Below, in pieces: positions 1,699 through 31,919 of a stretch of DNA of 34,924 bases. This DNA comes from a virus. Within the stretch, counting starts at the first letter, position 1; each line of letters starts with the position of its first letter. The notes under the pieces are model-generated. The model saw nothing but the letters and a program-made list of their open reading frames with translations. It did not search any database and had not been told where the DNA came from. The DNA lies in the IMG/VR virus record IMGVR_UViG_3300009515_000011, positions 1 through 34,924 of that record, one strand, 5' to 3'. A program made the position numbers and the translations under genes.

Positions 1699-1700
1699 AG

Positions 1701-2903: not shown

Positions 2904-2909
2904 AGGAAC

Positions 2910-4208: not shown

Positions 4209-4217
4209 CGTACTCTC

Positions 4218-5558: not shown

Positions 5559-5561
5559 TGT

Positions 5562-5783
5562 CTATGACTCCAAGATGAGGTTCGGCCAGGGTGCATCGAT
5601 TACAGACGCATCGTCTGATGCGAACAGCTCTATAGAGTGAACCGGCAAGCGGTTCTCATGATCCATGCCGTTGGCTGGATCGACAACCCAACTAGTGTAC
5701 GCCGCATCTGCGGACGTCGGGTCGTCAGCTTGGACATAGAAACGATCTCTCGCCATGTCAGTCACTCTATAGAGATTCGCCAT
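5562..5783 (-). CDS. Small conserved-looking protein, 73 residues
   Basis: A 73-residue acidic protein beginning MANLYRVTDMARDRFYVQ. It has a good ribosome binding site (AGGAGTGAACGG before ATG) and sits 10 bases after the stop of the 118-residue gene and 3 bases before the next gene, so it is almost certainly translated as part of the operon. The pattern YRVTD...DRFYVQADDP resembles a small beta-strand domain. No family was recognised. It may be an accessory or linker protein for the adjacent adhesins, but this is only inferred from location. Confidence 0.65.
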   Translation of the reverse strand: MANLYRVTDMARDRFYVQADDPTSADAAYTSWVVDPANGMDHENRLPVHSIELFASDDASVIDAPWPNLILES

Positions 5784-5793
5784 CCGTTCACTC

Positions 5794-6150
5794 CTAGCTT
5801 GCCAGCTGCTTCAGCTCTGGACGCTGCGTGGAGGCATCCAGGACTGCCCTTAGGTAGCCCAAGATCTGCATCGCACCACCCGGAGAATAGCCGCCAGTCG
5901 GCTTTTCCACGATACCCCTCATTAGCTCCCACTCCTCCTTGGTCAGCTGCACAACGTCGCCCTCATTGACGTCCGCAAATTTTTGCCTGAGGTCATTTGC
6001 AAGGAATAGGGTAGAAGCATCCACTCCGACCTTCGCGTCTACGAGGATGATGTCTCGCGCCCAGCCACTGAACCTCATCGTCACATCGGTGTCAGAGCCG
6101 TCCGGCTTTTTCAGGGTAATATCTCCAGGTATCTGTATGTAGCGGTCCAT
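5794..6150 (-). CDS. Unknown 118-residue tail-cassette protein
   Basis: A 118-residue protein beginning MDRYIQIPGDITLK. It has a strong ribosome binding site (AAGGAG) upstream of ATG and lies between the LamG gene and the 73-residue gene. The N-terminal half alternates short beta strands (ITLKKPDG, VTMRFSGWARDIILV); the C-terminal half is helical (EEWELMRGIV, AMQILGYLRAVLDA). No signal peptide, membrane segment or known catalytic motif is visible. The strand-then-helix layout would suit a small assembly factor or chaperone for nearby fibre proteins, but no homology was recognised and that remains a guess. Confidence 0.65.
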   Translation of the reverse strand: MDRYIQIPGDITLKKPDGSDTDVTMRFSGWARDIILVDAKVGVDASTLFLANDLRQKFADVNEGDVVQLTKEEWELMRGIVEKPTGGYSPGGAMQILGYLRAVLDASTQRPELKQLAS

Positions 6151-6174
6151 CTTACTGATCTCCTTAGGTTTCCA

Positions 6175-7101
6175 TCACGTGCCGAGGACCTTGTGGACAA
6201 CGATGTCCGTCACCGGACCTGGGCCTCCGTACTCACTCGCATCAGAATCTACTTCTGTTGACCCCCAATAAACAATAGAGGTGAGGGTCGTATCATTGCC
6301 TCTCATGCGATAGACCAAAGAACCGCCACCCCCCACCGCGCCTGACTCGTTCACAACTTGTGCCTCAAAGTAGTTCAGGTTTCCACCACTGGCGCCGCCG
6401 TCGACTGGCACAAGGGACGTGCCGCCCTGGAAGCCATGCACCTCGCCTTCGATAAACGTCAGACTGCTGTTAGTCAGCGTGTTGGCGTTCCCTGAAACAT
6501 CAGTAAAATCATTGTCAAGGCCGAGTCCGATTTGGAGGTTGGTTGCCGACGCAACATCACTCAAGTAGTCGTCGAACATCTCCGAGTCTGTGCGCTCATC
6601 GTCAAAGACGCGAACCTGATCGATGTATCCCCGATACCCATCATCGCCGCCTCCATCCAGGCCACAGATGGTGAACGCGGCTGCGTTCACACGCACCGTT
6701 CCCGTTCCGCCGATCGAAACCGCCGATCCAAGAGGCAGCCCGTCCTGGTAGAACTGAACCTCGGGCGTTCCACTACGGAAAACAGCCCCGACCCAGGTCC
6801 ACCTGTCGACTACAAGACTGAGCCCCGACGAAACCGCAGAGAATGTGGCCAGCCCTGATCCTGTCGTTGAGTACGTGAACCCAAGCTCATCAGAGGCATC
6901 CAGCCCAAGCATGTAAGCCCAGTCCTGGTTCTCGACGACGGTGTCGACCTTCCCCATCAGCGTATACGCAGAACCGATCGAGGTTGGACGTATCCAGCAC
7001 GACAGCGTCATGGACGCGGCTATGTCTAGCCCCGTCTGAGACGCATCCGTAATGAATGCGCCTTGGTTGTCAGCTGTAGCCTGTGCTGAATGGGTACTCA
7101 T
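6175..7101 (-). CDS. LamG/concanavalin-like tail adhesin
   Basis: A 308-residue protein. Residues 1-195 form a clear Laminin_G_3/concanavalin A-like lectin domain: MTLSCWIRPTS, WTWVGAVF, VQFYQDGLPLG and GYRGYIDQVRVFD are the standard strands of that fold, including the YxDxVRVFxxE ending. The C-terminal block (YRMRGNDTTLTSIVYWG to GGPGPVTDIVV) is homologous to the end of the LamG protein at 1701-2903, and FQGGTS resembles the repeat unit LQGGT there. AGGGAGCC precedes the ATG, overlapping the upstream stop region. The likely role is glycan or protein recognition at the tail tip. No enzymatic residues were seen. Confidence 0.8.
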   Translation of the reverse strand: MSTHSAQATADNQGAFITDASQTGLDIAASMTLSCWIRPTSIGSAYTLMGKVDTVVENQDWAYMLGLDASDELGFTYSTTGSGLATFSAVSSGLSLVVDRWTWVGAVFRSGTPEVQFYQDGLPLGSAVSIGGTGTVRVNAAAFTICGLDGGGDDGYRGYIDQVRVFDDERTDSEMFDDYLSDVASATNLQIGLGLDNDFTDVSGNANTLTNSSLTFIEGEVHGFQGGTSLVPVDGGASGGNLNYFEAQVVNESGAVGGGGSLVYRMRGNDTTLTSIVYWGSTEVDSDASEYGGPGPVTDIVVHKVLGT

Positions 7102-7107
7102 GGCTCC

Positions 7108-8169
7108 CTAGAAAGCGTTCTCTGGAATGGTGCCATCCCAGGGTACGGCGATGTTCTCGGCTACCTTGTGAAACTGGCGAGTACCGTTCGCTGGGAACGT
7201 GTCTCCGTTTGCCCGAGCGTTTGTCACTAGCCAGATATCCTTCAAGCGACCCTTGGGGCCACGGACACCGGCGCTGTCGGTGTCCCACATGGAAATCTCA
7301 CCAAACACGGTTTCGCCTTCGACCTCGTCCCCGACCCCTGGAACTGTGGCTGCATTCCAGAGGGATACATTGCCCGATGAATGCACGTAGTTCAGGTAGA
7401 CGAACTTGTGAAAGTTGCCTACGCCTCGTACGTTGTCGCTGCTTCCGTGAAGCCATCCATTGGTAGCATCGTGTGTCGATCCGCACTCGATTGCTTGAGT
7501 ACTCGTGGACCAAATGGATCCGTAGAGGTTGTGAGCCGCAGAGGGCGGCGCATCTGCCGCCTCCCCGATTGCCCAAATGGTGTAACAGACGTTGTTGTTG
7601 AGCATGAAGATCCTCAGCTCAGCCCCGTCGCTACTCATCAAGACATGGAAGGCGCTGTCTACTCCGTTGGACGTCTGTCCACCGGCCCACCAGCCAACCG
7701 TTGTTCCAATGGTAATTTCATTTGTCTCGTCCGATGCCGTCGGCGCGTCTGTTGTAGATCCGCCCGTGTAGTTGCCTCCTGGAGAGATGGCAACGCGAAT
7801 ACTTTCCGGCTGGCTATCGGCTGTCGCGTTGTTGTTGTTGTCCAGATCAATGAGGACCTGAGCGCTGCCCCCGTTCATGCCTGTATCAAAGACAATCCAG
7901 CTATGAGGATCTCCGGGGCGGTCCCAGATGAGATCTCCTGTGGTCGTCCACCTATCGGTCGCGTCCATTCCAGCCGCTGTCGAGTCACCGGACCCAGCCA
8001 CGGTCCAGATGCCGGTTGGAGTCGTGTCCCACGCAATCGGCGGCGATGTATTGGCCAGGATGTTCTTGAGATCCAACATCATGCTCTTGTGCCAGGCCGC
8101 ATTGACGGCTGTAGCTTGCTTGTTGTTGATGTTGAATCGCCAAGTCTTATCCAGTGTGGGTAGCGCCAT
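7108..8169 (-). CDS. MALP-type tail paralogue 1 (unknown function)
   Basis: A 353-residue protein, the shortest of the three MALP paralogues. It starts MALPTLDKTWRFNINN and ends RQFHKVAENIAVPWDG, matching the other two at both termini. The shared central strand is LMSSDGAELRIF. It lacks the roughly 75-residue SPANDG subdomain present in the 2910-4208 and 4218-5558 proteins, so that subdomain was either gained before their duplication or lost here. The composition is Asn/Thr/Gly/Trp-rich and beta-type. The start has AGGGA upstream. Function is unrecognised; a distal tail or adhesin role is inferred from context. Confidence 0.8.
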   Translation of the reverse strand: MALPTLDKTWRFNINNKQATAVNAAWHKSMMLDLKNILANTSPPIAWDTTPTGIWTVAGSGDSTAAGMDATDRWTTTGDLIWDRPGDPHSWIVFDTGMNGGSAQVLIDLDNNNNATADSQPESIRVAISPGGNYTGGSTTDAPTASDETNEITIGTTVGWWAGGQTSNGVDSAFHVLMSSDGAELRIFMLNNNVCYTIWAIGEAADAPPSAAHNLYGSIWSTSTQAIECGSTHDATNGWLHGSSDNVRGVGNFHKFVYLNYVHSSGNVSLWNAATVPGVGDEVEGETVFGEISMWDTDSAGVRGPKGRLKDIWLVTNARANGDTFPANGTRQFHKVAENIAVPWDGTIPENAF

Positions 8170-9351: not shown

Positions 9352-11070
9352 CTATAGCTCATCGACATATCCAGTAATCCAGATCCACAAAGCATCCGAG
9401 GCATTGCTCACGCTGTACTCGACAACCTGACTATCGTCTGTCCATAGCTCAGTCTGAGTGAACGGGGATATGGAAGCTGCAGAATCGGTGTCAATCTGGA
9501 TCTGAATCGCACCTCCGGTCCCTTCGCGTCGAATGCGAGCCTGGTTCCCAGACGAGGCAGGGGAAAATTGGAATCCAGCAAAGGCCCGGAACGCAGTCTC
9601 AGGAATAGCTGATGACAGAGATACGTTTGTGAAACTAGTTGCCGATCCAGATGACAACACCTGGAAGTTGGCATAGTCGTCCCACTGGATCAGCCGATCC
9701 CGGCCGCCGCCGCGCATGTAAAAGATCTCGATGTCCGAGCTTCCATCATTCCTCACCGCTCCCACTCGCCGGAACACATCGTACCCGGCTGGCAGCGTCG
9801 GAGATGCGAAACTCACACTCAGGAGAGCTGCCGGAACCACCCCTGGCCCATCGATGACATAGAGGGCATACCAAGTCGATGAAGCCTCGGACCCGGTATC
9901 AAGACCATTCGCACCCGAAGCAGTGATGTCCGCCGTAAGCGACGCGTTGACTGTTATATCTCGCCTTCCCGTGCTGTCTTTGGCTGTGCCCGGAGCGATA
10001 TCCACCGTCGATGCCGTGTTGTATGACATCGCCAACCCATCAAGATGCCCCGGCGGGAAGCTATTCTCTGGGAAGTTCTGAGATCGAAGACGATAAAGAG
10101 AGAATGTCGACCCCGCCTCTATCGCTGAGGCTGCGTCGGCATGCACTTCTAGCGAGGTAATGTTTGTGGAGTCGTCGTCCCATCCCCCGCCGTAAAGCTC
10201 AACCGTACCTGAGGTTTCCAGCCCGCCAGAATGCCCTATGTATCCTCTCTTGGTCCCCGTCGCCGCCTCCATCTTGGCTTCAAAGAAGACCTCATTCGCC
10301 GTATTGTCAGTGAAAGCCACACGGAGATCGGTGTAAGAGTTCGCTCCTGCCCCTGACCCTCCTCTTCTCTGTGTAGTCTGGTTGGCGGTAATTCCATTCG
10401 GACGCATGACCAGGAATCGCGTAGCAGATGGCTTGGTCCAGTGACCTAGAAGGACATACCTCTCGTCATCGTCCCCGTTCAGCCCACTGAAGGTAACGGT
10501 CTGAACGGCAGACCCAGTGACTTCGATTGTCTCAATGAACTCCAGAGGACCAGCAATGGCAGGGCCGGAGATCTCTATGACCATGGCGAATGACCGCGTT
10601 GCGCTCACAAGCGAACCGGCAGTACCTGAGATCATCCGACACTCAACCTCAGTGTCCTCTTCCGGGGTGAAGACATACGTCACCATCGGCTGGGTTGACG
10701 TATGACCAGTACTGGTCTCAGTGTTTGAAGATGTCTCCTTTCCGATGTTCGCCGCAGTCGTGACGTTGTACCAGTTGCAGTTGATGTTCGCGGCAGCTGA
10801 ATGGTTGATACGGATGCCAGCCTGAAGGAAATAGGTACGCCCAGCCTTCAGCCCGGAGAACTTGCCCGCGCCATCGACGCTGATGCCACGACTACTGTCA
10901 ATGGTGTCAAAGGCAACAGCCGTGGAAGCCGCAAACGTGTCATCCCCAGAGAGGGATGCGTAAATGAACTCCGGTGCACCGCGCCCACCGAGACGCTCGA
11001 CAAATTGCTTTGTCCCTACATCTGAGGAGTCTACTGCCGTCGGAGCTTGCTGATGGCTAAGTTTGGTCAT
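9352..11070 (-). CDS. Mosaic tail fibre protein with C1q-like and shared beta modules
   Basis: A 572-residue protein. It opens MTKLSHQQAP with TKQFVERL, the xLxHQ leader followed by a tail-fibre-like TKxxVxxL motif. Residues about 36-172 form a jelly-roll-like module (LKAGRTYFLQAGIRINHS...VTYVFTPEEDTEVECR) that recurs twice in the next protein and resembles C1q/TNF-like trimeric heads. Residues about 174-333 (GPLEFIETIEVTGSAVQ to FSLYRLRS) form a second module shared with the 717- and 1198-residue proteins. The C-terminal part (340-572) is unique here, begins with a LSVSFASPTLPAGYDVFRRV-type fibre segment, and may be the specificity region. AGGAG precedes the start. It is probably a trimeric receptor-binding fibre. 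Confidence 0.75.
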   Translation of the reverse strand: MTKLSHQQAPTAVDSSDVGTKQFVERLGGRGAPEFIYASLSGDDTFAASTAVAFDTIDSSRGISVDGAGKFSGLKAGRTYFLQAGIRINHSAAANINCNWYNVTTAANIGKETSSNTETSTGHTSTQPMVTYVFTPEEDTEVECRMISGTAGSLVSATRSFAMVIEISGPAIAGPLEFIETIEVTGSAVQTVTFSGLNGDDDERYVLLGHWTKPSATRFLVMRPNGITANQTTQRRGGSGAGANSYTDLRVAFTDNTANEVFFEAKMEAATGTKRGYIGHSGGLETSGTVELYGGGWDDDSTNITSLEVHADAASAIEAGSTFSLYRLRSQNFPENSFPPGHLDGLAMSYNTASTVDIAPGTAKDSTGRRDITVNASLTADITASGANGLDTGSEASSTWYALYVIDGPGVVPAALLSVSFASPTLPAGYDVFRRVGAVRNDGSSDIEIFYMRGGGRDRLIQWDDYANFQVLSSGSATSFTNVSLSSAIPETAFRAFAGFQFSPASSGNQARIRREGTGGAIQIQIDTDSAASISPFTQTELWTDDSQVVEYSVSNASDALWIWITGYVDEL

Positions 11071-13224
11071 CTACTTCAGCTCCTTGATGTAGACCCTGGA
11101 GAACTGCGTCCAAGACACGAAGTTGACGTCGGACGTGATGTCAATCTTGATTTGCGTCTCAACTGAGGGTGTGAACACGTGAATCGACGATGAGTTGCCA
11201 TTGAGGTCGTGCCCAACGTTGTCGACGTGGACATGGATTTCCGCCTCCTCACCCGTGTCATCTATGAGCGGAGTATCAGCAGGATGTAGAGTCCACCGCG
11301 ACTGACTAGAGCCCTCGTTCGTTGTGGCCCCCAGGTGCGCATGAATCTCATACGTCTTGCCAGGTTGTAGCGTAAAAATACCTGCCGCCTGTCCGGCGCC
11401 AGCAGATAACGCAATTGCCGTACCCCTGCTCGACGAAGAGTCCCACTCAATATGGTTGTTGACATTCACGTTGGTGGTCTGAGCAGACGACAGGGTGGCA
11501 ATCATGTAGTCGGGGCCTGTCGGCGCCTTTATGAAGGCGTCGTTGGTCATCATGACGTTGACCATGATACCCGGGGTGCCAGCCCCTGCTGTCACCAGGC
11601 TGGTGGTCGAGATATCCACTTCGATAGCGTCACTGAAAGCCACCGGGATGACTCCAACCGGAGACGCGGCACGATGATACGACGTGTTCGTCGAATCCAG
11701 CGTTACTGTAAGAATCGTCGACCCAGCGACCTTGAACTCGACCGTGATGGAGCCCGACGACACGGTGTCATCGATAAGGGATGCACTCACGCCAACAGCG
11801 GACCCGCCAAAAGTGGCATGTCCTGTCGTGTACGTGGTGGCAGAGTTCGTTCCCTGTGCAACCACTGCCTGCACATTACGCTCATAGATGGAGGCGTTGG
11901 CCGTCTTGAGGTTGTTCCTCGTGCGACGCCAGAGAATAAACCGAGCGCCAACGGCGATGCCGCTAGCTACACTCGAATGGATCCTGAGTGACGTGACATT
12001 GGTCGTCTTATCCCCCCAGAAGCCACCGAAGTCATCTATGTGGAGATCGGTAGTTGTCGGAGGATCGGCATCATCGATGATTGAGCGAACCTGGTAGCCA
12101 CGCACCTCGCCAGTCGTTTCCGCATAGAACTCAACAGTTCCATGGGCGTAGCGGTTGGCAGTGAGCCCAGCAATGCGCAGATCGGATGACGTCTGAATGA
12201 CGTGCGAGGCACCGGCAGCGTGTCGCCCGGAGGCCTGCAACGTCGACGCAGAGTTGGGCTGCAAAGTGATATCTGGCGTCAACCCTGTGGCAGGAAGGAT
12301 GAACTCGATAAAGTAGGTCTGATCTACATCGCCATCGAGGGCCCGACCCAGAACCCCGTCTCCCCCTGTGCCGAAATCTACATCCTGCACTGCGGCGCCA
12401 GTGACCTCGATAATATCTACGAACTCCAGGCCGCCGACGACCTCGGCCTGCACCGCTCCTATCTCAGTAACCTGGAACCAGGATGCTTGTGAGTCTGCAT
12501 CAACATTGTCGGTTCCCGACCCAGCCCGAACTTCGACCAGCGAATCGACTGTGGGTGTGAATGGGAACGACAGGACCGGCTGGCTGGACAGGCTGGCTGT
12601 CTCATTTACTGTCCTCACCACGCTGCTGGAAGTCCCAATAGCGGCTGCGCCCGTGACGTCGTAAAAGTAGAACGATCTAGAAGCCGCCGATGAGTGTTGC
12701 AACCGCATGGCTGCCTGGAGCCAATACGTGCGTCCAGCCTTCAGTGAAACCTGATTGCTCGCCAGTGCGATAACACCACGCTGGGTTCGCACGGTATCCC
12801 AGGCCAGCGTTGCATCGGATGCGGAGACTCCGAGGTCTTGGTCACCACTCAGCACAACAACGATGTAGTCGCCGCCTGCCGCAGCAACAGGGCCGCTCGC
12901 AGCTACGTCTTGCCACGTGGCAGTCGTGGCGCTCGTCGCCACAAGAGCCTGGCCGGTCGTGGGAGGTGGCGCTGTAGAGACGTCGACATCCGCACCTGTC
13001 GTAGACAGAGCATCAGCTGCACCGCCGCCAGCTTCGTTCTGCCATGTCGCAGTCGTGGCGCCTGTCGCCTTGAGAACCTGGCCTGTTGTTGGGGGAGCTG
13101 CAGCGGCGACATCGACAGACGCACCTGTGGTCTGAAGCGACTCTGCGGCACCACCGTCAGCCTTTGTGGCTGCGTCGGTTCCATCTACAGGAGGAACTGT
13201 GCTCTGGTGTGGAAGCTTAGGCAT
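11071..13224 (-). CDS. Mosaic tail fibre protein with duplicated modules
   Basis: A 717-residue protein beginning MPKLPHQSTVPPVDG (xLxHQ leader). Residues 22-106 contain two roughly 43-residue tandem repeats, each ending PPTTGQ(V/A)LxAT...TATWQ, a motif often seen in phage tail fibres. Then follow a C1q-like jelly-roll module (about 120-256), the GGLEF(V)xxIEVTG module (about 264-437), the YERxxxF module (about 447-566) and a second C1q-like module at the C-terminus (about 572-717). The same modules are present in the proteins encoded on either side. No enzymatic motif is visible. The layout suggests a long, probably trimeric fibre assembled by domain shuffling. Confidence 0.75.
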   Translation of the reverse strand: MPKLPHQSTVPPVDGTDAATKADGGAAESLQTTGASVDVAAAAPPTTGQVLKATGATTATWQNEAGGGAADALSTTGADVDVSTAPPPTTGQALVATSATTATWQDVAASGPVAAAGGDYIVVVLSGDQDLGVSASDATLAWDTVRTQRGVIALASNQVSLKAGRTYWLQAAMRLQHSSAASRSFYFYDVTGAAAIGTSSSVVRTVNETASLSSQPVLSFPFTPTVDSLVEVRAGSGTDNVDADSQASWFQVTEIGAVQAEVVGGLEFVDIIEVTGAAVQDVDFGTGGDGVLGRALDGDVDQTYFIEFILPATGLTPDITLQPNSASTLQASGRHAAGASHVIQTSSDLRIAGLTANRYAHGTVEFYAETTGEVRGYQVRSIIDDADPPTTTDLHIDDFGGFWGDKTTNVTSLRIHSSVASGIAVGARFILWRRTRNNLKTANASIYERNVQAVVAQGTNSATTYTTGHATFGGSAVGVSASLIDDTVSSGSITVEFKVAGSTILTVTLDSTNTSYHRAASPVGVIPVAFSDAIEVDISTTSLVTAGAGTPGIMVNVMMTNDAFIKAPTGPDYMIATLSSAQTTNVNVNNHIEWDSSSSRGTAIALSAGAGQAAGIFTLQPGKTYEIHAHLGATTNEGSSQSRWTLHPADTPLIDDTGEEAEIHVHVDNVGHDLNGNSSSIHVFTPSVETQIKIDITSDVNFVSWTQFSRVYIKELK

Positions 13225-13227
13225 CTC

Positions 13228-13980
13228 TTACAACCCCAATGCGAACTTGTCGTTGAAGTAATCAAACACGGCTGTTCGCTCTGTGCCGTCCAGGCCCTTG
13301 TCCCATACCGCCATCTCAGCAATCTCCCCCTGAAAACTATGAGTACCTCCGATTGCCCCTCCTGTGTTCCCGGTGCCAAGGCGAAACGTTGCCTGCCACT
13401 GTTTCGAGAGCGTCTGCTGAGCGAACTGCGAGTTGTTGGCGTATCTGGTCATCTCGTTACCAACCATGGTCACGAGGTAGACTCCCCATTCGTTGTTGTC
13501 GAACGAAGATGAGGCAACTCCCGTGGACCGTGCGGCAGAGCCGAATGTCTCGTAGATAAGGTTGCTGTGCATGAAGTGAGGCTGCGTCGTGGATGACCCA
13601 AACACGTGCCACCCCTTGTTCCCGGTAGTTGTTCGCCTTACCACCAAGGCCATTGTTCCGTCGGTCGATCCAGAGATGAACGCAGACTGAGACATCTTGT
13701 CGTTGGCGCCATCAAACTGAACTACGGAGAGCCCGTTGAGAATGGACGCCGCCAGGGTTGGACCTCCTCCGCCGGATCCAGTGTCCTCCAACCAGTCATT
13801 GCCGTTGCCGCTCTGGTCTGCCCACACGGTAATAGGGCTACCTCCGGTCACCCCGGCCTCCGGGTCCCACAGGCCTAGTAGCTGGTCTGTCACAGGGAAT
13901 GGTGACCCTGATGCAGAGGACTTATTCATGGAGACGGCGAAGGTAAACATGGCTATTGGAGGTCCTGAATGACAGCGCAT
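13228..13980 (-). CDS. LamG/concanavalin-like tail protein
   Basis: About 250 residues. Residues 30-250 form a concanavalin A-like/LamG domain: LLGLWDPEAG, ITVWADQSGNGND, SVVQFDGANDKM, TMALVVRRTT and FQGEIAEMAVWDKGLDGTER are characteristic, the last being the usual final strand of Laminin_G_3-type domains. The start is uncertain. ATG at 13980 overlaps the upstream gene by 28 bases and has GGAG about ten bases before it. ATG at 13950 lies two bases past that stop codon but has no ribosome binding site; it would remove ten residues that are not part of the domain. The role is probably glycan recognition at the tail tip. Confidence 0.75.
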   Translation of the reverse strand: MRCHSGPPIAMFTFAVSMNKSSASGSPFPVTDQLLGLWDPEAGVTGGSPITVWADQSGNGNDWLEDTGSGGGGPTLAASILNGLSVVQFDGANDKMSQSAFISGSTDGTMALVVRRTTTGNKGWHVFGSSTTQPHFMHSNLIYETFGSAARSTGVASSSFDNNEWGVYLVTMVGNEMTRYANNSQFAQQTLSKQWQATFRLGTGNTGGAIGGTHSFQGEIAEMAVWDKGLDGTERTAVFDYFNDKFALGL

Positions 13981-16900
13981 TCCAGATTTGCTCCGTCAGG
14001 ACAGAATCCGGTAATGAGATCTACGGCGCTAGCTGTGGCTGTGATTGTCGGAGCTGTTCCTCCCTCGAACTTGTAGGCGGTACCAAAGGACAGGGTGTCC
14101 CCTCCACCGCCGCTCTGAGTAATACGGAAAATGTATGTGAATCCGGCAACCAAGTTGGTCGGGTTGTCGAGCTGTCCGGTTGAGCCGGATATGGTCAACG
14201 AAAAGCTGTTGCTCAGGCTGGCGTCGACCGAAATGTTTGCCCCATCGGCTAGCGCAGAGATGGCTGAACCCTGAGCCTTTGTGAAAGTCTGCTGGGTATC
14301 TGTCCGGGCTACCACGGTATCGTTGGACCCGTAGGCAACTGGCACTCCCGACGGGGCTACGGAGAGCCTGGTGATACCCGTAACAGTATTGCTGGCAGAT
14401 TGAACTGGATCTGTCGCAACCTTAGCCGCAAGACTCACATCAACAACGAGTCCCGAAGTCACCGATCCGGCGTTGTCGTAGCCAGTTGCGACTGCCTCGA
14501 CAGTGATTTCGTCACCGTTCGTCAGCTCATGGAGACCGACGGCTCCTGTGTCAAAGGCCACATCTGTGTCTGTCGTGTTCAGGGTAGCCGTCAGCTTGGT
14601 TACCGCATTGATCTTGACGTTGACAACAATGGAGCCCGCCGTGACTGCGTCCTCGATGTGTGCGGCAACGCCGATAAGTGAGCCTGGAAACTGGACGCGG
14701 CCTACAGTGGCTTCCTGGGTTGAGCCACCGACGGTCACGCCGAATGATGCGTGCCTCTCATAGACGCCGCCTGCAGAGGCGACGATCTCGGGGGACTCGA
14801 CGATCTTGAACAGGCGGAAAAAGGACCCTACACCGATGGCGGATGATGCCGCTTCGTTGATCTCCAGCGAGGTGATGTTCGTCGCCGTCTCGTTCCAGTT
14901 GCCCGTATAGAAGTGCGCCGTATTGTCCGGTACAGCATCCAAGGCCGAGCCACGCGCAATCACTGCTCGTCGCTGCCCTGTGACAGGCATGATGTCGATG
15001 ATGGCCCACAGGTTTGGCGAGCTGAAGTCAGCAATCGTAAGCTCAACCTCGTCTGAGCCTGTAACGCTAGCGCCGCCTGTGGCCAGCTTCTGGCTATCCT
15101 GATTTGTTGTCAGACCGTTCGGACGAAGTGTGAACGTCCGCGTGGTCGGCTGATCGTCGTTGACGATGTACGCCTCAAGCATGTAGCGCGTATCCGTGTC
15201 ACCATCGAGCCCGGTGAACACAACACTGCCCGTCGCTGCACCTGTCACCGTCTTGGAATCAACGAAGACCAGCGACCCTCCTCCGGCTACAACGGGCTCT
15301 GTTGCACCCGTGAGCAAGACGTTGACCGTTAGGCCAGTCGGAGCACTCCCGGCATTCGTGAAACCAGACGTAACCACTTCGACTGAGATCTCATCATTGG
15401 CTGCGACCGGGTCCTCGCCTGGGAGGGAGGTTGTGAGATTCGTGATGGTGTCGGTCGTGTTCAGGATCGTCGACATCACTGTCGAACCACCGACCTTGAC
15501 ATTGACTGTCACCGTACCGGCAGTGACCGCGTCCTCAAGACGAGCCGACACACCGATAACGGATCCTGCGCGCACCGCAGAGCCGAGGGTTGCCTCTACA
15601 GTCCCTGCTCCCTCAGGGATGCTGAATGTCGCAGCCCTTTCAGAGCCGCCGCCAGCACTGACTCCGCCACCACCGCCTGAGCCCACATCCGTGTCGGTGC
15701 CGGTGTCATCTGTCAAAACGAGCTGCGGCGTAGCATCGTTGCGTACCCAGAGAGTCGCCTTGCTTCCCGTCGGGGTACCACCTGGGACTGTAGCCTGCTC
15801 ATCGAAGACCATGCCGGTTGGATCGATAAGGCCCGCGACCGTAAGCTTGCCAGCCACGTCCAGGTCACCGGCCTGGTTTAGATTCATCACCGACGTGAAG
15901 CCACCGCCTGATGAAGTCTCGACCACGAAGTGCAGCTCGCTCGACAACGCCGCATCGACTGGCTGGTTCTGCAAGAGCCAGGTGTGCTGACGATCTGCAC
16001 CACCGTCATGGCCATGGCCGACCAAAGCAAGGGATGGTGAATACTTCGGATTCCCGGCCGTAGCCGTGGTTGTATTCCGCAACTCCACTGAAATGGTGTT
16101 GCGATCTGACTGTGTCGTGATCGCATCGTGGTCAGCTCGGAGGGCAGCCCCGTTGATCGCAACACCTGCACGAGCAATGTCAATGACAGGGACGATTCCT
16201 GTGGTCGTCTCTGTCCAAGTAATCGCACGATTCGCCGTCGACGACCCCCCAGACTGAGTCAGGGCCAGAGCCGTATTCGCACTATTGCTAGCGAACTGGG
16301 CAGCAATCATGTTCCCTGTATGGAACACGTTATTGGTCAGGTTGATGAGATTGCCCGAGCGGTCGCCGCCAGCCTGCGTCTTTGAAATCTCCAGCAGATT
16401 ATTGTTATCTGCCGAGGATGTGTTTCGGATAACAACCGCATCCGAAATCGCCTCCACAATCCTACCGACTCCGGCGCCGCCCTGGTTGTATGCACCCGTA
16501 AGCGTGTTGCCGCCGCCACCGGCGCCGAGCACGGTGTCAACATTCGTGTCATCCGTGAAGACCAGCACACTCGGGCTGTCTTGCCGCACCCATAGCAAAC
16601 CTCGACCACTAGGGATCGAGCGTACTGCCGCAGCACGCTCAATGAACTCGACACCATCATCGAGGCGAGAGACACCGTCATCTACGTGCAGTGCCGCCGG
16701 GTTAGTGATCGTCGCCAAGGCCCCTTCGGCCGGTGGCCCGGCGATATACCAGGTAGACGCATCGTCAACTACAGAAGCACCAGCGAAGGCGAGCGTCGGA
16801 GCCTGGACGATGGCTGCCCGGTGCTGAGCCAGCGCTCCGGTCGCGTAGGTGATCGTGCGCTGGAGGTTGAAAATGATATCCGAGTTCTCGGTGCTGGCTG

Positions 16901-17549
16901 TGATACCCGAGTGACCCGCCGCTGTAACACGCAGGGTCTCTTGCAAACCACTGACTGAGGCTTGAGGAGAGAGCGTGAGCGTCCCCAGGGCATCCCATAG
17001 AGCCGTCTGGGCGTTGTTGTTCGTGACAGCTAACTGGTTAGAACCAGGAGAGAACAAGCCCGTCTGGGCTCCGCCAAGGGATATGGCTGGGGCGGCTGCG
17101 GAACCGCCGGACGATAGGAGCAAGCTACTCCCCGAACCGTTCTGCAAGATCGATATGCCAGCGCCCGTCGCGTTGGCGCCCATTGACACAGACACTCCAG
17201 CACCGGATTGAGCCCCGGCCGGTGTCTTGGAAATCTCCAAGACATTATTGTTGTCCGCTGCAGCATTGGTGATTGAAACTGCGCCAGCATCAGCAGTGAT
17301 GGCACTGCCGCCGTTGTAGGCGTCATCGAGTGACCCGCCGCCGCCGGAACCCACCGCCGTCCAAGCAGTGTCAGCGGCCCCAGTCTTGAAGTAAACTTCT
17401 CCACCCGCTGCAACGTATCGCAGGAATAGCGACCCCTCAGGAGCCGCCAGGCCACCGCTGGAAGGATCCGCCGTACCCGAGACCAGTCGCGGGTCGGATG
17501 CCCCTCCGCTGACTACATCATATCGTACGCCTCTGAACGGTACAGACAC
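13953..17549 (-). CDS. Large mosaic tail fibre protein (1198 residues)
   Basis: The largest adhesin-like protein of the window. A repeated unit of about 280 residues covers the first half: (L)LWVRxDxxPxLVxTDDT followed by a glycine run occurs at about 315-348 and 596-628, with a weaker copy at 40-72, and ADNNNxLEISKT occurs at 98-109 and 380-391. Two YERxxxF beta modules (about 636-750 and 930-1044) flank one GSLVFVDSKTVTG module (about 757-915); these match modules in neighbouring proteins. The C-terminus (1045-1198) carries ITRLSVAPSG and QTFTKAQGS, phrases common in phage fibre ends. The start is GTG at 17549, supported by GGAGGA. It is likely a long tail fibre or fibre-network protein. 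No peptidase or chaperone domain was recognised. Confidence 0.8.
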   Translation of the reverse strand: MSVPFRGVRYDVVSGGASDPRLVSGTADPSSGGLAAPEGSLFLRYVAAGGEVYFKTGAADTAWTAVGSGGGGSLDDAYNGGSAITADAGAVSITNAAADNNNVLEISKTPAGAQSGAGVSVSMGANATGAGISILQNGSGSSLLLSSGGSAAAPAISLGGAQTGLFSPGSNQLAVTNNNAQTALWDALGTLTLSPQASVSGLQETLRVTAAGHSGITASTENSDIIFNLQRTITYATGALAQHRAAIVQAPTLAFAGASVVDDASTWYIAGPPAEGALATITNPAALHVDDGVSRLDDGVEFIERAAAVRSIPSGRGLLWVRQDSPSVLVFTDDTNVDTVLGAGGGGNTLTGAYNQGGAGVGRIVEAISDAVVIRNTSSADNNNLLEISKTQAGGDRSGNLINLTNNVFHTGNMIAAQFASNSANTALALTQSGGSSTANRAITWTETTTGIVPVIDIARAGVAINGAALRADHDAITTQSDRNTISVELRNTTTATAGNPKYSPSLALVGHGHDGGADRQHTWLLQNQPVDAALSSELHFVVETSSGGGFTSVMNLNQAGDLDVAGKLTVAGLIDPTGMVFDEQATVPGGTPTGSKATLWVRNDATPQLVLTDDTGTDTDVGSGGGGGVSAGGGSERAATFSIPEGAGTVEATLGSAVRAGSVIGVSARLEDAVTAGTVTVNVKVGGSTVMSTILNTTDTITNLTTSLPGEDPVAANDEISVEVVTSGFTNAGSAPTGLTVNVLLTGATEPVVAGGGSLVFVDSKTVTGAATGSVVFTGLDGDTDTRYMLEAYIVNDDQPTTRTFTLRPNGLTTNQDSQKLATGGASVTGSDEVELTIADFSSPNLWAIIDIMPVTGQRRAVIARGSALDAVPDNTAHFYTGNWNETATNITSLEINEAASSAIGVGSFFRLFKIVESPEIVASAGGVYERHASFGVTVGGSTQEATVGRVQFPGSLIGVAAHIEDAVTAGSIVVNVKINAVTKLTATLNTTDTDVAFDTGAVGLHELTNGDEITVEAVATGYDNAGSVTSGLVVDVSLAAKVATDPVQSASNTVTGITRLSVAPSGVPVAYGSNDTVVARTDTQQTFTKAQGSAISALADGANISVDASLSNSFSLTISGSTGQLDNPTNLVAGFTYIFRITQSGGGGDTLSFGTAYKFEGGTAPTITATASAVDLITGFCPDGANLECAVIQDLQ

Positions 17550-17550
17550 G

Positions 17551-18735
17551 CTATTCCTCCGCCACGAAGAAGTAGATTGTGTCGCCGTCGTCGAGTGCCG
17601 CCGACGTGTTCACAGTGAAGGATCCGACCGCCCTGCCCGATTCAGGAATATCTACCCCGACATGAGACGATACCGTCCCCAGGTTATGGATGACTATGTA
17701 TGCGACGCTCGGCATATCTGGGGAGAAAGATACAGTAAAAGAGTCACTGTCTGCAGGCTGCGAGATAGTCCGAATAATGCGTCGGTTCTCGTACAGTCGC
17801 GGATCGTTGTCGCCGACAGCGATTGGATCAATCGCTGTCACCGGATCGAGAGATAGCTTGGTAACACCCTTGACCGAGCCTGATGCATCCGGGACGCCGC
17901 CCGAGGGCAAGGAGACGCCCGTAGAAAACGTCGCGATGACTGTCAACCCCGCATCGAGGGTGTCCGCGTTGGTGTACCCGGCTGTGACTACTTCAATGCT
18001 GATGTCCGCATTGGGTGTTACAGGGTGACTGCCCGGAGCGGCGACAGTGAATAGGGTCGTCGGGTTCGCCAGATCAAGAACGACTGTCAGCTCAATGCTC
18101 GCCCCGACCTTAACGTTGACCGTGACCGTACCGGCCGTCACGGGGCGAGTCAGCTCGGCCGACAAGCCAATCAGCGAACCCTGCAAAATGATGCGACCGA
18201 GCGTCGCCTCTTGCGTATCCGAACCTTCGGGCACACCGAAGGTTGCAGACCTTTCGTATGTATCTCCCTGGTTCCCCGTACCTGGGACGCCAAAGATGTT
18301 GACCGTCTCCCCGGTCTCCACCTTAGACCCGTGACGCCAATAGATGGTCGTGCCCCTTCGGATGCACAAGGCAAAGGCGTCGTCTGTATTCGGGACCGTC
18401 GACGCGACGGTCTTGGCGATTGTGTTGTTTGTCTGCGGAGCCCGGGTCAGCACCGCATAGAGAATCTCCCCATCCAGGATGCTAATTGTGTCCGCAGGAA
18501 CGGTCAGCTTGAAGCCTGAGATAGGCGAGAACACCTCGATGTCCGCAGACCACGTCAGGGTATTGGCGCCCGCATCGAATGTAACGTCGTCGCCGCCGCC
18601 AAGAATGAGCTGACGATCTTCCCTGGAGGCATAGCCAGACCCGTCCATGGCCTCGACCATCGAGTCGAACTTCTCGAACCACGGATCACTGTCCTTGGCC
18701 GGAAACGGCCATCTCATCCTTGGAGAATCAGGCAC
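17551..18735 (-). CDS. Tail fibre/baseplate-proximal protein with YERxxxF module
   Basis: A 394-residue protein starting with GTG at 18735, eight bases inside the upstream gene, with GGAG six bases before it. The N-terminal 135 residues (DPWFEKFDSMVEAMDGSGY, LTWSADIEVFSP, FALCIRRGTTIYWRHGS) look like the baseplate-proximal attachment domain found at the start of many tail fibre operons. Residues 160-275 are a YERSATFGVPEGSD module shared with the 1198- and 717-residue proteins. The C-terminal 110 residues include KGVTKLSLDP and VGDNDPRLYENR, typical of phage fibre C-terminal repeats. As the first gene of the fibre block it may be the connector on which the others assemble; this is inference. 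Confidence 0.75.
   Translation of the reverse strand: MPDSPRMRWPFPAKDSDPWFEKFDSMVEAMDGSGYASREDRQLILGGGDDVTFDAGANTLTWSADIEVFSPISGFKLTVPADTISILDGEILYAVLTRAPQTNNTIAKTVASTVPNTDDAFALCIRRGTTIYWRHGSKVETGETVNIFGVPGTGNQGDTYERSATFGVPEGSDTQEATLGRIILQGSLIGLSAELTRPVTAGTVTVNVKVGASIELTVVLDLANPTTLFTVAAPGSHPVTPNADISIEVVTAGYTNADTLDAGLTVIATFSTGVSLPSGGVPDASGSVKGVTKLSLDPVTAIDPIAVGDNDPRLYENRRIIRTISQPADSDSFTVSFSPDMPSVAYIVIHNLGTVSSHVGVDIPESGRAVGSFTVNTSAALDDGDTIYFFVAEE
17555..17560 (-). promoter_or_regulatory. Ribosome binding site deciding a GTG start
   Basis: GGAGGA on the minus strand, five bases before the GTG at 17549 and inside the last codons of the upstream gene (GAG GAA TAG). It supports GTG initiation of the 1198-residue fibre protein and coupled translation. 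Confidence 0.75.
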
Positions 18736-19591
18736 TTACATCTCCATACTTCGCGAGTCCGTTTCGCTTGAGTACATCGAAGACCCTCTGATAGGGCCGT
18801 GCGTCTGGGCCCCCGAGGATCTCATTGCTCTCACAGGACGCCAGGATACCCCTCAGCCGCGCCATGACGCGCTTCGCGCTCGGGTCCATCCGGTAGTAGT
18901 TCATGCCCGTGAACGTGGACACACGGTTCTCCAGGACACGTAGAGGGACAAACCCGTACTTCCAGTACGAGATGGCAATACCCATCGCGTACCCGCGATA
19001 CTCAGACTCGGCACGCCAGTAAGCCCTCCATGGAGCCAAGGGGACCAGGGCGCCGCCCGCAAGGAAGGCCCACCAACCAGCAAGCCAAACAGACAAAGCG
19101 GCAAATGCGACAACGGACAGCCCGATCAAGGGGAAGAACACCCCGAGACGGACTTTCCTTGACTCAGTTCCCCTCATCGCAATCCACAGCGCCAAATACG
19201 ACACCGCCGCGCCACCCGCAACGACAGCGAGGGGAATCCAGGAGCCAAGGACAGCAAAGGCTGTCAGTCCTATGACCGCAAGCCACTGCGGAAACGCATA
19301 TCCGAGGTTGAACCGGATTGGCCTTTGCTCCCCGTCCCAAATGTGCACACGTTCATGCGCCAGAACACGGGCGTACTCTTCCCATCGCAGGCTCAGGAGT
19401 CTCCGGGAGGGGAAATACACGGTGCTACCAAGGGTTGTGACAAAGCCGTCCATGAACCTGTTGTTGAACGGGTACATGAGCACCGCGAGCAGCTTCATTA
19501 GCTTGCTCTCGTCTTTGAACCGCATGGAAAAGGAGGGATGAAGCTCCTTGATCTCTGCAGCGATTTGGTCGAATAGCTCTTTACCCGTCAT
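18728..19591 (-). CDS. Membrane protein with HExxH zinc metallopeptidase motif
   Basis: A 287-residue protein. Residues 77-83 read VLAHERVH, an HExxH zinc-binding motif (H79, E80, H83). A glutamate-rich helix WRAESEYRGYAMG (192-204) could supply the third zinc ligand. Between them, residues about 101-140 and 150-187 are strongly hydrophobic and could form two to four membrane helices. This layout (HExxH, membrane hairpins, ExxxY helix) recalls M48-like membrane metallopeptidases, though no family is certain. The gene lies between the BppU-like gene and the first fibre gene and overlaps the next gene by eight bases. AGGTGA precedes the ATG. The possible role is proteolysis at the host envelope or maturation of a tail protein; the substrate is unknown. 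Confidence 0.65.
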   Translation of the reverse strand: MTGKELFDQIAAEIKELHPSFSMRFKDESKLMKLLAVLMYPFNNRFMDGFVTTLGSTVYFPSRRLLSLRWEEYARVLAHERVHIWDGEQRPIRFNLGYAFPQWLAVIGLTAFAVLGSWIPLAVVAGGAAVSYLALWIAMRGTESRKVRLGVFFPLIGLSVVAFAALSVWLAGWWAFLAGGALVPLAPWRAYWRAESEYRGYAMGIAISYWKYGFVPLRVLENRVSTFTGMNYYRMDPSAKRVMARLRGILASCESNEILGGPDARPYQRVFDVLKRNGLAKYGDVSA

Positions 19592-19598
19592 GGCTCAC

Positions 19599-20018
19599 CT
19601 ACGGCAATCTGCAGACCGGCTCCTTGACCTTGAACTCGGACACCTCCACCACAGGAACCTGCTTTCCGCTACTCAGGACCACCCATACATCGAATACGTA
19701 TTCTCCTGCAGGGAGGTTCTTTGTGTCGTCAGGGACCAAGTGAATGAGGGCTAACCCGTCCGTTGCTGGAGTCAAAATCTCAATCTCCAGTGCGCTCCCT
19801 GAATCCTTGTCGATGAGAAGCTCTGGATCCCCCGTAGACCGTCGAACACAGAAGTAGACCGTTGACCCCGTTAGGTTGACAGGCTGCTCACTCTCGGTCC
19901 CGTCGGTCGCGGTTACGATAGTTGTAACCTCCAACTCAAGGTCCAGGGACTCTCCCTGGAACACCTCGATGGAGTTGGAACTCTTGGTGATATTTGAGCT
20001 GACAGAGGAAATCGACAT
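19599..20018 (-). CDS. BppU-like immunoglobulin-type baseplate protein
   Basis: A 139-residue protein. The pattern EVFQGESLDLELEV, NLTGSTVYFCVRR, ALIHLVPDDTKNLPAGEYVFDVWVV and a final VSEFKVKEPV strand resembles the N-terminal Ig-like domain of upper baseplate proteins such as BppU of Gram-positive siphophages, a fold also used as a fibre adaptor in other phages. AGGAG precedes the ATG and overlaps the region of the upstream gpJ-like stop. Its location between the wedge and fibre genes fits an adaptor linking baseplate and fibres. The family resemblance is by pattern only. Confidence 0.6.
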   Translation of the reverse strand: MSISSVSSNITKSSNSIEVFQGESLDLELEVTTIVTATDGTESEQPVNLTGSTVYFCVRRSTGDPELLIDKDSGSALEIEILTPATDGLALIHLVPDDTKNLPAGEYVFDVWVVLSSGKQVPVVEVSEFKVKEPVCRLP

Positions 20019-20027
20019 GAGCTTCTC

Positions 20028-22244
20028 CTAGGTGGTCACCACCGATGCCGCATCGACGACTTCGCTTGTCACTGTGATAGTTCCACGGGTCACCACCTCG
20101 AAGTCCTGTACTGGAAGGTTGCCGTCCGAATCGATGAGCGTTACGGGGCCCACGATCTTGATGTTAACGAAGTCAACACCGTCGATCTTGACGTCGTCAG
20201 GCGCCGGGGCGATGGGTGCATACAGCTCAGACAAACGCAGTGTTACGCCAAACTTTCGCCCTCTCAGCACCCCGAGAATCTCAGCCTCGACCTGGGACCT
20301 AACGGACGACTCATTAAACCCTGTCAAGATGCCGACATGCGCTGTAATCGATGCAGCGACCAGGAGGTTGCTAGCACCAGTCACCTTGACAACCTGAGTC
20401 ACCTCCTTGGCCGCATCGAGATACCTCTGCAACGAAGACTGAAGCCCGATAGTCGGAACCACGTAGAAGCCCTCTGAATCAAACGTGAGCACAGGGACCT
20501 CGATGAGGTTCGACTGACACTCATTCGACAAAAATGAGTCAACGTGGTCCGAGATGTCCGTCGTCAGCGTGGTCACATCATCACTGATGTCATCAATGTC
20601 TGTGTCCAGGGTTGTTGCCGTGGACTTCAGGGAGGTGTTGCTCGTTTCGATTGAATCGATGTCTGTACGAATAGAGGCCCGCAGGGTCTCCGAGCTATCT
20701 GCCTTCGCGTTTATGACATCGAGTTCCGTTGTGATGGATGTCGTGTTCGCAAGGATGGTTCCAGCCTGAGTCGTTACCTCTGAGTTTCTGGCATCAGCTG
20801 TAATTCTCGCAACATCCATTGTCCCGAGATACCCAAGAAGGGTCGACAGTAGGGTGGCCCCTATCTCCCCTGCACCAGCAGCAACCGGGGCTGCGTTGAT
20901 GTCGGTGACAATGCTGTCGTGCTGCGTGTCGATAGTTCCAAGGTCCGTACTGATGGAGATAGAGTTCGAGCTGATGACCCCTGCAGCAGTCCGAGTGCTC
21001 TCGTTGGCCGCTCGGGCCGATACTTCAGCCGTGGCGATGTCCGAGATGTCTGTCGCCAGGGAGGAATCATCCGTCTGCGCATCAGATACAGACGATGCGA
21101 TCGAGTCGCTGTCAGCGCTGATTGAAGTAACGGCCGCATTGACGGTCGGCACCACGCTGTCTGCTTCAGCTCGGATGGATGCAAGCTTCGAAGACAGGAA
21201 GGCATCGTCCGATGAGCCACGAACAGAGATTGCCTGAGCTACTGCAATGGAGCCAAACACCGGGTCCACGAACGACTGCGCACGGGCCTCGTAGTCCTCG
21301 ATGGTTACATTGACGTTGCGCGCCTTGAATACCGTGGGCGCATTTGCCTTGACGCTCTCAATGGTCTCCGGGTCACTACCCCCGCTGGTACCTTCAGGGT
21401 TCGTTACGACCAAGCCGATCTGCTCAAAGCTGACCACGAGTGGGACTACCGGGGAAGTGATCGTTCCCTCTGTCGCCTGGCCGTTGACACCGGACGTTAC
21501 AAAGAACGAGATGCGAACCTCTGCCCCGTCCTCAGGAATTTTGCCAGCGATACCGTCGCCAAACCGTAGCGTTGCCGGGTCATCGTTGTACCCAATCTCG
21601 AACTGTTCCGTATCGCCAAAGACAAGCAGCTCCTGTTCTTCCCAGGCGTTGCCGTCAACCTCCACAGTTACCTGTGAAACGTTCTCCGTACCTGGACCAA
21701 CAATGAACTTGCCGTCAGGAACGTTAGCGATCTTGAACACCTGGTTCGCCGAACCATCCGACGTGAACACCGTCGTAAGGGTCTCACCCTCGGATGCGGT
21801 AACCGTCTTTGTAGACGTGTCGGAGATCGAGAACTCCAAGTCCTCCTGGGTCTCAAAGACCAGGCCAGCAGGCCCCTGGAACTTGAAGCCAGCAGGGATG
21901 GGAATCGGAAACGTGTTCGCCTGATCTACAAGCGTGATACTGAGATCGACGCTGGACGCCGTTGAGGCACCAACCTTGTAGCCAAGCTGGCGGGCCAAAC
22001 GCGACGCCGACGACAGCGTCCTCGCGGTCGAGAGGAAGTTGTCGGTCGCTCGCCTGTCCAGGTAGAACGACAGCGTGTCCAACCCGAACGAGAAGATGTC
22101 CACAAGCATGATGCCCAGGGACGAGACAGCGAAGTCATTGAAGACCGTCGCGAACTTGACCTGCAAGCGCGAGAGGATCTCATCTTCATGGGTGTCGAAG
22201 TCGAGACCCGCGTACCGGACGCGTACTAGATTTGCACTCGCCAT
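20028..22244 (-). CDS. Baseplate wedge protein, gpJ/gp6-like, with coiled-coil insertion
   Basis: A 738-residue protein of the Baseplate_J family (P2 gpJ, T4 gp6), which forms the wedge ring around the hub. Supporting sequence: SLGIMLVDIFSFGLDTLSFYLDR (42-63), PIPAGFKFQGP (116-125), LRFGDGIAGKIPEDGAEVRI (226-245) with GVNGQA (252-257), and ARNVNVTIEDYEARAQSF (308-325). Normal C-terminal sequence resumes at about 600. Between residues 345 and 575 lies a Ser/Thr/Asp/Ala-rich, heptad-like segment absent from ordinary J proteins, probably a coiled-coil spoke projecting from the wedge. GGGGGAG precedes the ATG. It sits immediately downstream of the gp25-like gene, as in many myophages. Confidence 0.88.
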   Translation of the reverse strand: MASANLVRVRYAGLDFDTHEDEILSRLQVKFATVFNDFAVSSLGIMLVDIFSFGLDTLSFYLDRRATDNFLSTARTLSSASRLARQLGYKVGASTASSVDLSITLVDQANTFPIPIPAGFKFQGPAGLVFETQEDLEFSISDTSTKTVTASEGETLTTVFTSDGSANQVFKIANVPDGKFIVGPGTENVSQVTVEVDGNAWEEQELLVFGDTEQFEIGYNDDPATLRFGDGIAGKIPEDGAEVRISFFVTSGVNGQATEGTITSPVVPLVVSFEQIGLVVTNPEGTSGGSDPETIESVKANAPTVFKARNVNVTIEDYEARAQSFVDPVFGSIAVAQAISVRGSSDDAFLSSKLASIRAEADSVVPTVNAAVTSISADSDSIASSVSDAQTDDSSLATDISDIATAEVSARAANESTRTAAGVISSNSISISTDLGTIDTQHDSIVTDINAAPVAAGAGEIGATLLSTLLGYLGTMDVARITADARNSEVTTQAGTILANTTSITTELDVINAKADSSETLRASIRTDIDSIETSNTSLKSTATTLDTDIDDISDDVTTLTTDISDHVDSFLSNECQSNLIEVPVLTFDSEGFYVVPTIGLQSSLQRYLDAAKEVTQVVKVTGASNLLVAASITAHVGILTGFNESSVRSQVEAEILGVLRGRKFGVTLRLSELYAPIAPAPDDVKIDGVDFVNIKIVGPVTLIDSDGNLPVQDFEVVTRGTITVTSEVVDAASVVTT

Positions 22245-31328: not shown

Positions 31329-31919
31329 TCAGTGACTTTCCTTGCTTCCGTAGCCATCAACCGCCACCAGCAGAAGACCCTTGAGCGCATCTGTGTAGCT
31401 GAGATTCCGCTCTTGACACATGCCCTTGAAGACTTCGTACTGAGCCCCATCAACCCAACCATTGACCTTCACATCAGAACCAGCGTCCTGCCAGCTCTGC
31501 AGATCTTCGTACAGCTCAGGCTGCGTGATGAACGACGTGATCATCGACCTCAGCAGAGCCGACACACTTCCGAACCTGGAGCCATTATGGGCGTAGGCAT
31601 GCACCGTCTGATGCAAGACGCCACTGATGAGAAAGTTGATAGGGGTCTTGTTGTCGATGCGCTGAGGGAGGACTCGCGCGCTCTCAGCGGCAATCCTACA
31701 GTCCCGACACACAACTACGCCGTTCGAACTGCGCAGCTTACCGCCCGCCTCAGGCGGAATCACAAAGCATGCAGCCACCCTGTCGCGCCGAGTGCAGTTG
31801 ACACACTCGTGTCCGCATCGCTCCAAGACCGCTTCCTTCCATTCCAGAAGGTCGGTCACGTCTGACAGTGGTCCGGGGTGGGGCTGTTTCAAGGGATACC
31901 TCTCAATGGAGATACCCAC
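31329..31919 (-). CDS. Degenerate HNH-type zinc protein with ribbon-helix-helix-like repeats
   Basis: A 196-residue protein starting with GTG, with AGAGG upstream. Residues 33-75 resemble an HNH endonuclease: CVNC (39-42), IPPEAGG (54-60), SNGVVVCRDC (65-74). The histidines that make HNH enzymes active are gone (VAAC replaces the usual xDHI; Arg follows the last Cys), so it is probably a zinc-binding, non-cutting fold. Residues about 93-131 (INFLISGVLHQTVHAY...SVSALLRSMITSFI) and 150-187 (VDGAQYEVFKGM...SYTDALKGLLLVAV) both look like ribbon-helix-helix units. It could bind DNA or another protein. It sits among the assembly genes between tube and tape measure, so either a regulator or a tail chaperone is possible. 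Confidence 0.55.
   Translation of the reverse strand: MGISIERYPLKQPHPGPLSDVTDLLEWKEAVLERCGHECVNCTRRDRVAACFVIPPEAGGKLRSSNGVVVCRDCRIAAESARVLPQRIDNKTPINFLISGVLHQTVHAYAHNGSRFGSVSALLRSMITSFITQPELYEDLQSWQDAGSDVKVNGWVDGAQYEVFKGMCQERNLSYTDALKGLLLVAVDGYGSKESH

Follow-up and report, generated by a model that had tools for sequence, protein, structure and literature searches.

Predicted jelly-roll modules in near-fixed order in a putative family of receptor-binding fibres from an uncultured contractile-tailed virus

The receptor-binding proteins of phages are known for their mosaicism, in which homologous domains recur in adhesins next to unrelated partners (Smug et al., 2023; PMC10684548), and domain exchange is most frequent in receptor-binding and baseplate proteins (PMC10684548). 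Fibre gp24 of the myocyanophage Pam3, a phage with a contractile tail, possesses a TNF-like jelly-roll head that has been shown to be a trimer, and the Pam3 fibre comprises this one TNF-like domain together with a glycine-rich tip and a chaperone (PMC9608196). Chimeric fibres of Bdellovibrio carry exchanged tips, some of which are TNF-like and glycan-binding (PMC10769870). In the metaviromic islands of marine phages, genes for C1q-like heads lie beside tail fibre genes and a part in host recognition has been inferred for them (PMC3909814), while the Ackermannviridae have a multi-tailspike complex whose receptor-binding proteins are encoded side by side, gained and recombined (PMC11414711). Shuffled phage adhesins, TNF-like fibres, chimeric TNF-tipped fibres, C1q-like recognition genes and multi-spike cassettes are thus already known.

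The window, that is, the whole stretch of DNA analysed here, is a 34.9-kb virus record with almost all of its genes on the minus strand. In the order of transcription these encode the tail sheath, tail tube, tape measure (a call that rests on gene length and position), hub, spike, gp25-like and wedge proteins, followed by the fibre region; the source is an uncultured virus with a contractile tail. An HNH endonuclease-like gene (31329-31919) is found inside the tail gene cluster, and the wedge protein contains a long insertion of repetitive, coiled-coil-like sequence (20300-21150), with 33-nt repeats at 20547 and 21039 as an example. The stretch 19599-20018 gives a weak match to a fibre-assembly family (phrog_3304, E 7.6e-4), and phrog_1084, which has no assigned function, fits better. 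Between the BppU-like gene and gpA, at 18728-19591, lies a protein of 287 aa that has hydrophobic stretches and an HExxH-like motif, AHERVH; it has no family match and is 43-49% conserved at the same place in L012 and L015.

Relatives were sought by scanning IMG/VR with the module alignments described below, after which all loci were mapped by HMM. Outside the window, about forty contigs carry the module named G, eight carry C and five carry Y. The window phage has two true relatives among these contigs, L012 (G007) and L015 (G009): their wedge proteins are 61-63% identical to that of the window, and L015 also matches it in gene order and in its spike (62% identical). In all three phages the fibre genes come directly after the baseplate wedge genes. 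A further contig, L004 (G002), carries relatives of gpD, gpE and the gpH/K/L family, and no counterpart of the window wedge protein was found in the L004 record. Among cultured phages, tblastn returned no relative of gpD, G3 or Y2, and gpB was matched only in its shaft and C-terminal parts. The features on which the following argument is based are:

20028-22244, minus strand: baseplate wedge (J-like) protein, upstream of the fibre genes (PHROG baseplate wedge match)
17551-18735, minus strand: gpA, 394 aa, with a baseplate-type dock, Y1 and a C-terminal part (open reading frame; N-terminus conserved in L015 and L012)
18292-18735, minus strand: dock of gpA, aa 1-148 (53% to aa 1-148 of the L015 fibre, 50% to aa 1-157 of L012_0)
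17911-18258, minus strand: module Y1 of gpA (alignment and profile)
13953-17549, minus strand: gpB, 1198 aa, with a shaft, Y2-G1-Y3 and a fibre C-terminal domain (open reading frame, modules)
16368-16610, minus strand: shaft segment of gpB, aa 314-394, common to other fibres (64% to aa 489-568 of the L015 fibre; parts also in L012_0 and L012_2)
15300-15644, minus strand: module Y2 of gpB (alignment and profile; predicted structure)
14805-15281, minus strand: module G1 of gpB (alignment and profile)
14418-14762, minus strand: module Y3 of gpB (alignment and profile)
13977-14417, minus strand: C-terminal domain of gpB, aa 1045-1191, found in annotated phage tail fibres (tblastn; Caulobacter phage S2B, cyanophage PSS2, S-CBP2 and others)
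13228-13980, minus strand: gpC, lectin-like (Laminin_G_3; concanavalin/laminin-G-like; PF13385, E 2.5e-6), free of C, G and Y modules
11071-13224, minus strand: gpD, 717 aa, with an HQ-type start, two linker repeats and C1-G2-Y4-C2 (open reading frame, alignment, profile; 44% identical to L004 gene 1 over 640 aa)
13162-13224, minus strand: HQ-type N-terminal peptide of gpD, KLPHQ..VPPVD..D..TK (sequence listing)
12900-13161, minus strand: two linker repeats of gpD, TTGADVDV...GQVLKAT..TATWQ (72% DNA self-match over 133 nt)
12457-12867, minus strand: module C1 of gpD (alignment and profile)
11914-12435, minus strand: module G2 of gpD (alignment and profile)
11527-11886, minus strand: module Y4 of gpD (alignment and profile)
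11074-11511, minus strand: module C2 of gpD, divergent (pairwise scores to C1 and C3; sister to C2 of L004 gene 1)
9352-11070, minus strand: gpE, 572 aa, with an HQ-type start, C3-G3 and a C-terminal domain (open reading frame, alignment, profile; 44% identical to L004 gene 3)
10555-10965, minus strand: module C3 of gpE (alignment and profile)
10072-10551, minus strand: module G3 of gpE (alignment and profile)
9367-10056, minus strand: C-terminal domain of gpE, aa 339-568 (phrog_34307, no assigned function, E 2.6e-13)

All ten module copies read in frame at these positions. Their pairwise Smith-Waterman scores were compared with 300 shuffles, none of which equalled a within-class score: the Y copies are 35-54% identical (z 11-32), the G copies 35-41% (z 24-40), C1 and C3 41% (z 34), C1 and C2 25% (z 7.5), and C2 and C3 29% (z 4.4), while every cross-class pair stays at z 2.5 or below. 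The Y copies of gpA and gpB are the tightest (43-54%), Y4 of gpD being more distant. C2, the C-terminal module of gpD, is the weakest copy of its class and is nevertheless firmly placed there because it matches, at 41%, the module at the C-terminus of an L004 gene. Every copy was also found at E <= 2e-32 by profiles widened with outside homologues, which were built partly from the window copies themselves. The homology of four Y, three G and three C copies, as claimed in the preliminary description, is thereby borne out, and the lack of significant pairwise scores that it had named as counting against itself did not arise, with z of 4.4 to 40 within classes. Its phrase "four adjacent fibre proteins" holds for the region but not to the letter, as the module-free gpC sits between the second and the third.

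By sequence, comparison of the modules with Pfam, PHROG and PDB gave nothing convincing, and a match of C to RsgI3 (6qe7, E 1.9e-4) was set aside because the 38-residue partial alignment is too short. The C1q profile PF00386 matched nothing in gpD, gpE, 12 C-module sequences or the whole record, so that the earlier label "C1q-like" for module C fails at the level of sequence; it is recovered for the gpD chain by structure comparison. The AlphaFold model of the C-G-Y-C chain of gpD is all-beta and of moderate confidence (pLDDT 70.5, pTM 0.45), its domain orientation not being reliable. In PDB, the best Foldseek matches are tandem TNF/C1q-like heads, namely single-chain forms of BAFF/APRIL, adiponectin and C1q (prob 1.00), and single heads in the model reach a TM of about 0.7 to 4-1BBL and the BclA tip; these matches support a TNF/C1q jelly-roll fold for the predicted chain taken as a whole. 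The same model matches many predicted phage tail proteins, and tandem heads of this fold are therefore probably widespread in phages. Module Y alone (Y2) is predicted as an eight-stranded jelly roll (pLDDT 91), with the trimeric cement protein of phage KHP40 as its nearest fold (TM 0.60), followed by C1q-like heads.

Module G is the C-terminal tip of proteins in distant phages. In five contigs (L003, L018, L020, L023, and L048) it is preceded by collagen-like repeats, a layout of stalk and tip that is that of C1q and BclA; no collagen-like run was found in the window fibre proteins. Collagen helices are trimeric, and these stalks thus support a trimeric G head, short of proof. In L003, L017, L018, L023, and L048, three or four neighbouring genes form an array in which every gene ends in G; from their sequences these arrays appear to be fibre-tip gene families in unrelated virus contigs, several of them collagen-stalked.

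The module chains of the window read Y (gpA), Y-G-Y (gpB), C-G-Y-C (gpD) and C-G (gpE). The preliminary description stated that module order differs between the proteins, which is loosely correct, but all of them fit the single order [C or G]-G-Y-[C or G], a regularity that became clear only when the relatives were added. Only five of the nine possible neighbour pairs occur in the 11 multi-module proteins (C-G seven times, G-Y nine, and Y-C, Y-G, and G-G three each), and the end slots of the chain, first and last, are taken by either C or G. The linkers are short, mostly 9-18 residues, two longer C-G gaps of 21 and 29 residues being due to the early end of the C match, and the joints are recognisable across phages, with EIGAVQANVIGGLEF at C-G and NNVRADSA.TYER at G-Y. 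Compared with shuffled architectures, the directionality has P 0.0005 with all proteins pooled, a value that is too small because homologous proteins are not independent, and P 0.027 when each phage is represented by a single protein; the window taken by itself gives no significance (P 0.11-0.19). Free module order was rejected on the pooled set, subject to the same non-independence. The near-fixed order and the conserved linkers thus indicate that the modules are not freely shuffled and that the internal C-G-Y run was inherited as a block, and exchange appears from these comparisons to be concentrated at the first slot, the last slot and the dock.

Reassortment is visible among the relatives. 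A 1316-aa fibre of L015 joins the gpA dock and the gpB shaft segments to a C-G-Y-G chain. The distal halves of this fibre and of L012_2 are 47% identical over 558 aa on different docks, as L012 puts its L015-like distal half behind the HQ-type start common to gpD, gpE, L004 genes 2 and 3, L012_2 and L013_2 (62% between gpD and L012_2 over aa 1-21). The gpA-type dock of L012 in turn bears the C-terminus of a different L015 protein, the tips on this type of dock are unrelated to one another, and a BppU-like protein of L001 carries a fused Y module. All three modules, as well as docks and shafts, are thus variously combined across the window, L001, L004, L012, L013, and L015, and docks and tips reassort among relatives. 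Shaft units of 420 nt stand in tandem in a fibre gene of L015 (L015:6396-7426, 83% identical over 611 nt), hence shaft length changes by tandem duplication.

A candidate for exchange of a single module is found in L004, where the DNA of the adjacent genes 1 and 2 is 79.7% identical within aa 623-750 and 43.8% identical outside. This block corresponds to module Y, with both breakpoints lying no more than about two residues from its ends (lnL gain 80). Identity at four-fold sites is 46% in the block and 25% outside it (P 0.024), which makes constraint alone an unlikely cause, although stronger constraint on Y may add to the block. The closest relatives of the gpD modules are also discordant: C2 groups with L004 gene 1 (support 100/99; the gene 2 alternative is rejected, AU 0.002), and G groups with L004 gene 2 (support 96/94; the gene 1 alternative is marginal, AU 0.08). 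In the window, the synonymous sites of module pairs are saturated and a DNA repeat search found no recent repeat linking modules; a recent DNA-level duplication was rejected on these grounds, and the window duplications are therefore old. Because of the saturation, exchange cannot show in the window itself, and the breakpoints at module borders that had been expected are seen in L004 genes 1 and 2, where selection on Y may contribute. Of the domain shuffling proposed earlier, dock and tip reassortment, the Y-BppU fusion and the L004 block stand, and free shuffling gives way to C-G-Y blocks kept with their linkers.

Several readings of the locus can be weighed against these data. Tandem duplication of an ancestral C-G-Y-C fibre gene, followed by divergence and truncation without any module exchange, would account for the near-fixed order, the conserved linkers and the age of the window copies, and the matches of gpD and gpE to L004 genes 1-3 preserve gene order. 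Such a history would not readily yield the dock and tip reassortment between L012 and L015, the C/G alternation in the end slots, the border-matched identity block in L004 or the discordant relatives of C2 and G in gpD, and we regard it as unlikely. That the jelly-roll modules decorate the capsid as cement proteins is suggested by the nearest fold of Y, yet in three phages these genes come straight after those of the baseplate wedge, L001 has Y fused to a BppU-like protein, and the C-terminal domain of gpB is of the tail-fibre kind; we consider this reading extremely improbable.

A more substantial question is whether the proteins are subunits of one composite serial fibre, as in T4 gp34-gp37, rather than separate fibres with different receptors. 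The L015 chain of 1316 aa unites a gpA-type dock, a gpB-type shaft and a gpD-type head chain, and gpA, gpB and gpD of the window may therefore be its split version. On the other hand, gpD and gpE have a start peptide of their own, shared with L004, L012, and L013 genes, and in L012 the gpA-type dock and the distal half that is shared with L015 belong to different genes, the latter to one of HQ type. A serial fibre is accordingly possible, if on the improbable side, and the start peptides favour separate fibres. It is also conceivable, though we hold it to be very doubtful, that the three unlike jelly rolls of C-G-Y, tied together in one chain by their short conserved linkers, fold into an intramolecular pseudo-trimer, a counterpart in nature of the single-chain trimers that have been engineered from C1q or BAFF. 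A single polypeptide would in that case offer three distinct faces for binding, and the geometry of the assembly would require the fixed order.

The preferred explanation is that gpA, gpB, gpD and gpE very probably form receptor-binding fibres, and that the locus is likely a receptor-recognition cassette of stacked trimeric jelly-roll fibres, shaped by block duplication, slot swaps, module conversion and dock/tip exchange. Each fibre protein has its own N-terminal dock or shaft, followed distally by one or more small, predicted jelly-roll heads of the C, G and Y families. Three chains would associate, in analogy to the trimers of TNF/C1q heads and cement proteins, with each module forming a trimeric head and the whole chain a stack of them, and the head loops would bind surface glycans or proteins. 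The family would have grown via ancient duplication of C-G-Y blocks and diversified as terminal slots were swapped; single modules would pass from one neighbouring gene to the other by exchange or conversion, the breakpoints falling in the linkers, and whole distal halves would move onto another dock. From this we infer trimers, their virion position, receptor binding and a benefit for host range, and the four proteins would be separate fibres on one virion.

Downstream of the fibres, a second paralogous family occupies 2910-8169 and consists of gpH (7108-8169), gpK (4218-5558) and gpL (2910-4208), which are 27-30% identical and have no match in Pfam or PHROG; L004 encodes two relatives, at 1029-3028, upstream of its fibre genes. 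Two further proteins of this region, gpM (1701-2903) and gpI (6175-7101), are Laminin_G_3 lectin-like, and their C-terminal 46 residues are 54% identical where the lectin parts are only 26% identical, a candidate for another module exchange on the evidence of this alignment. Within gpM, two 62-nt direct repeats (1891-2039, 84% identical, spacing 87) encode LQGGTLPQDMPYFS twice.

Taken together, the locus suggests an apparent grammar of phage adhesins in which the internal order and the joints are near-fixed and the terminal slots and docks are exchanged. If true, it helps to explain how receptors change without breaking fibres and to annotate fibres missed by current profiles; three unannotated head families are defined, of which G occurs in about 40 virus contigs, and L004 genes 1 and 2 provide a tractable case of apparent exchange borders matching domain borders. 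Like gp24 of Pam3, the proteins are predicted to be fibres of a contractile-tail phage with TNF-like jelly-roll heads, but with up to four jelly rolls per chain and with no glycine-rich tip or chaperone identified (PMC9608196). The Bdellovibrio fibres likewise form a family with exchanged tips, but they are bacterial and place a single TNF-like tip on a beta-helical shaft (PMC10769870). The heads of the marine islands are annotated as C1q (PMC3909814), whereas the modules here lack a C1q sequence match, and the Ackermannviridae proteins, encoded side by side like the putative fibres here, are tailspikes that recognise polysaccharides (PMC11414711). Compared with the mosaic phage adhesins (PMC10684548), one phage here combines three unannotated head families in repeated chains of near-fixed order, and there is also an apparent exchange block matching one module. 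What is new is therefore the repeated three-family head chain in near-fixed order together with this apparent, module-exact exchange block.
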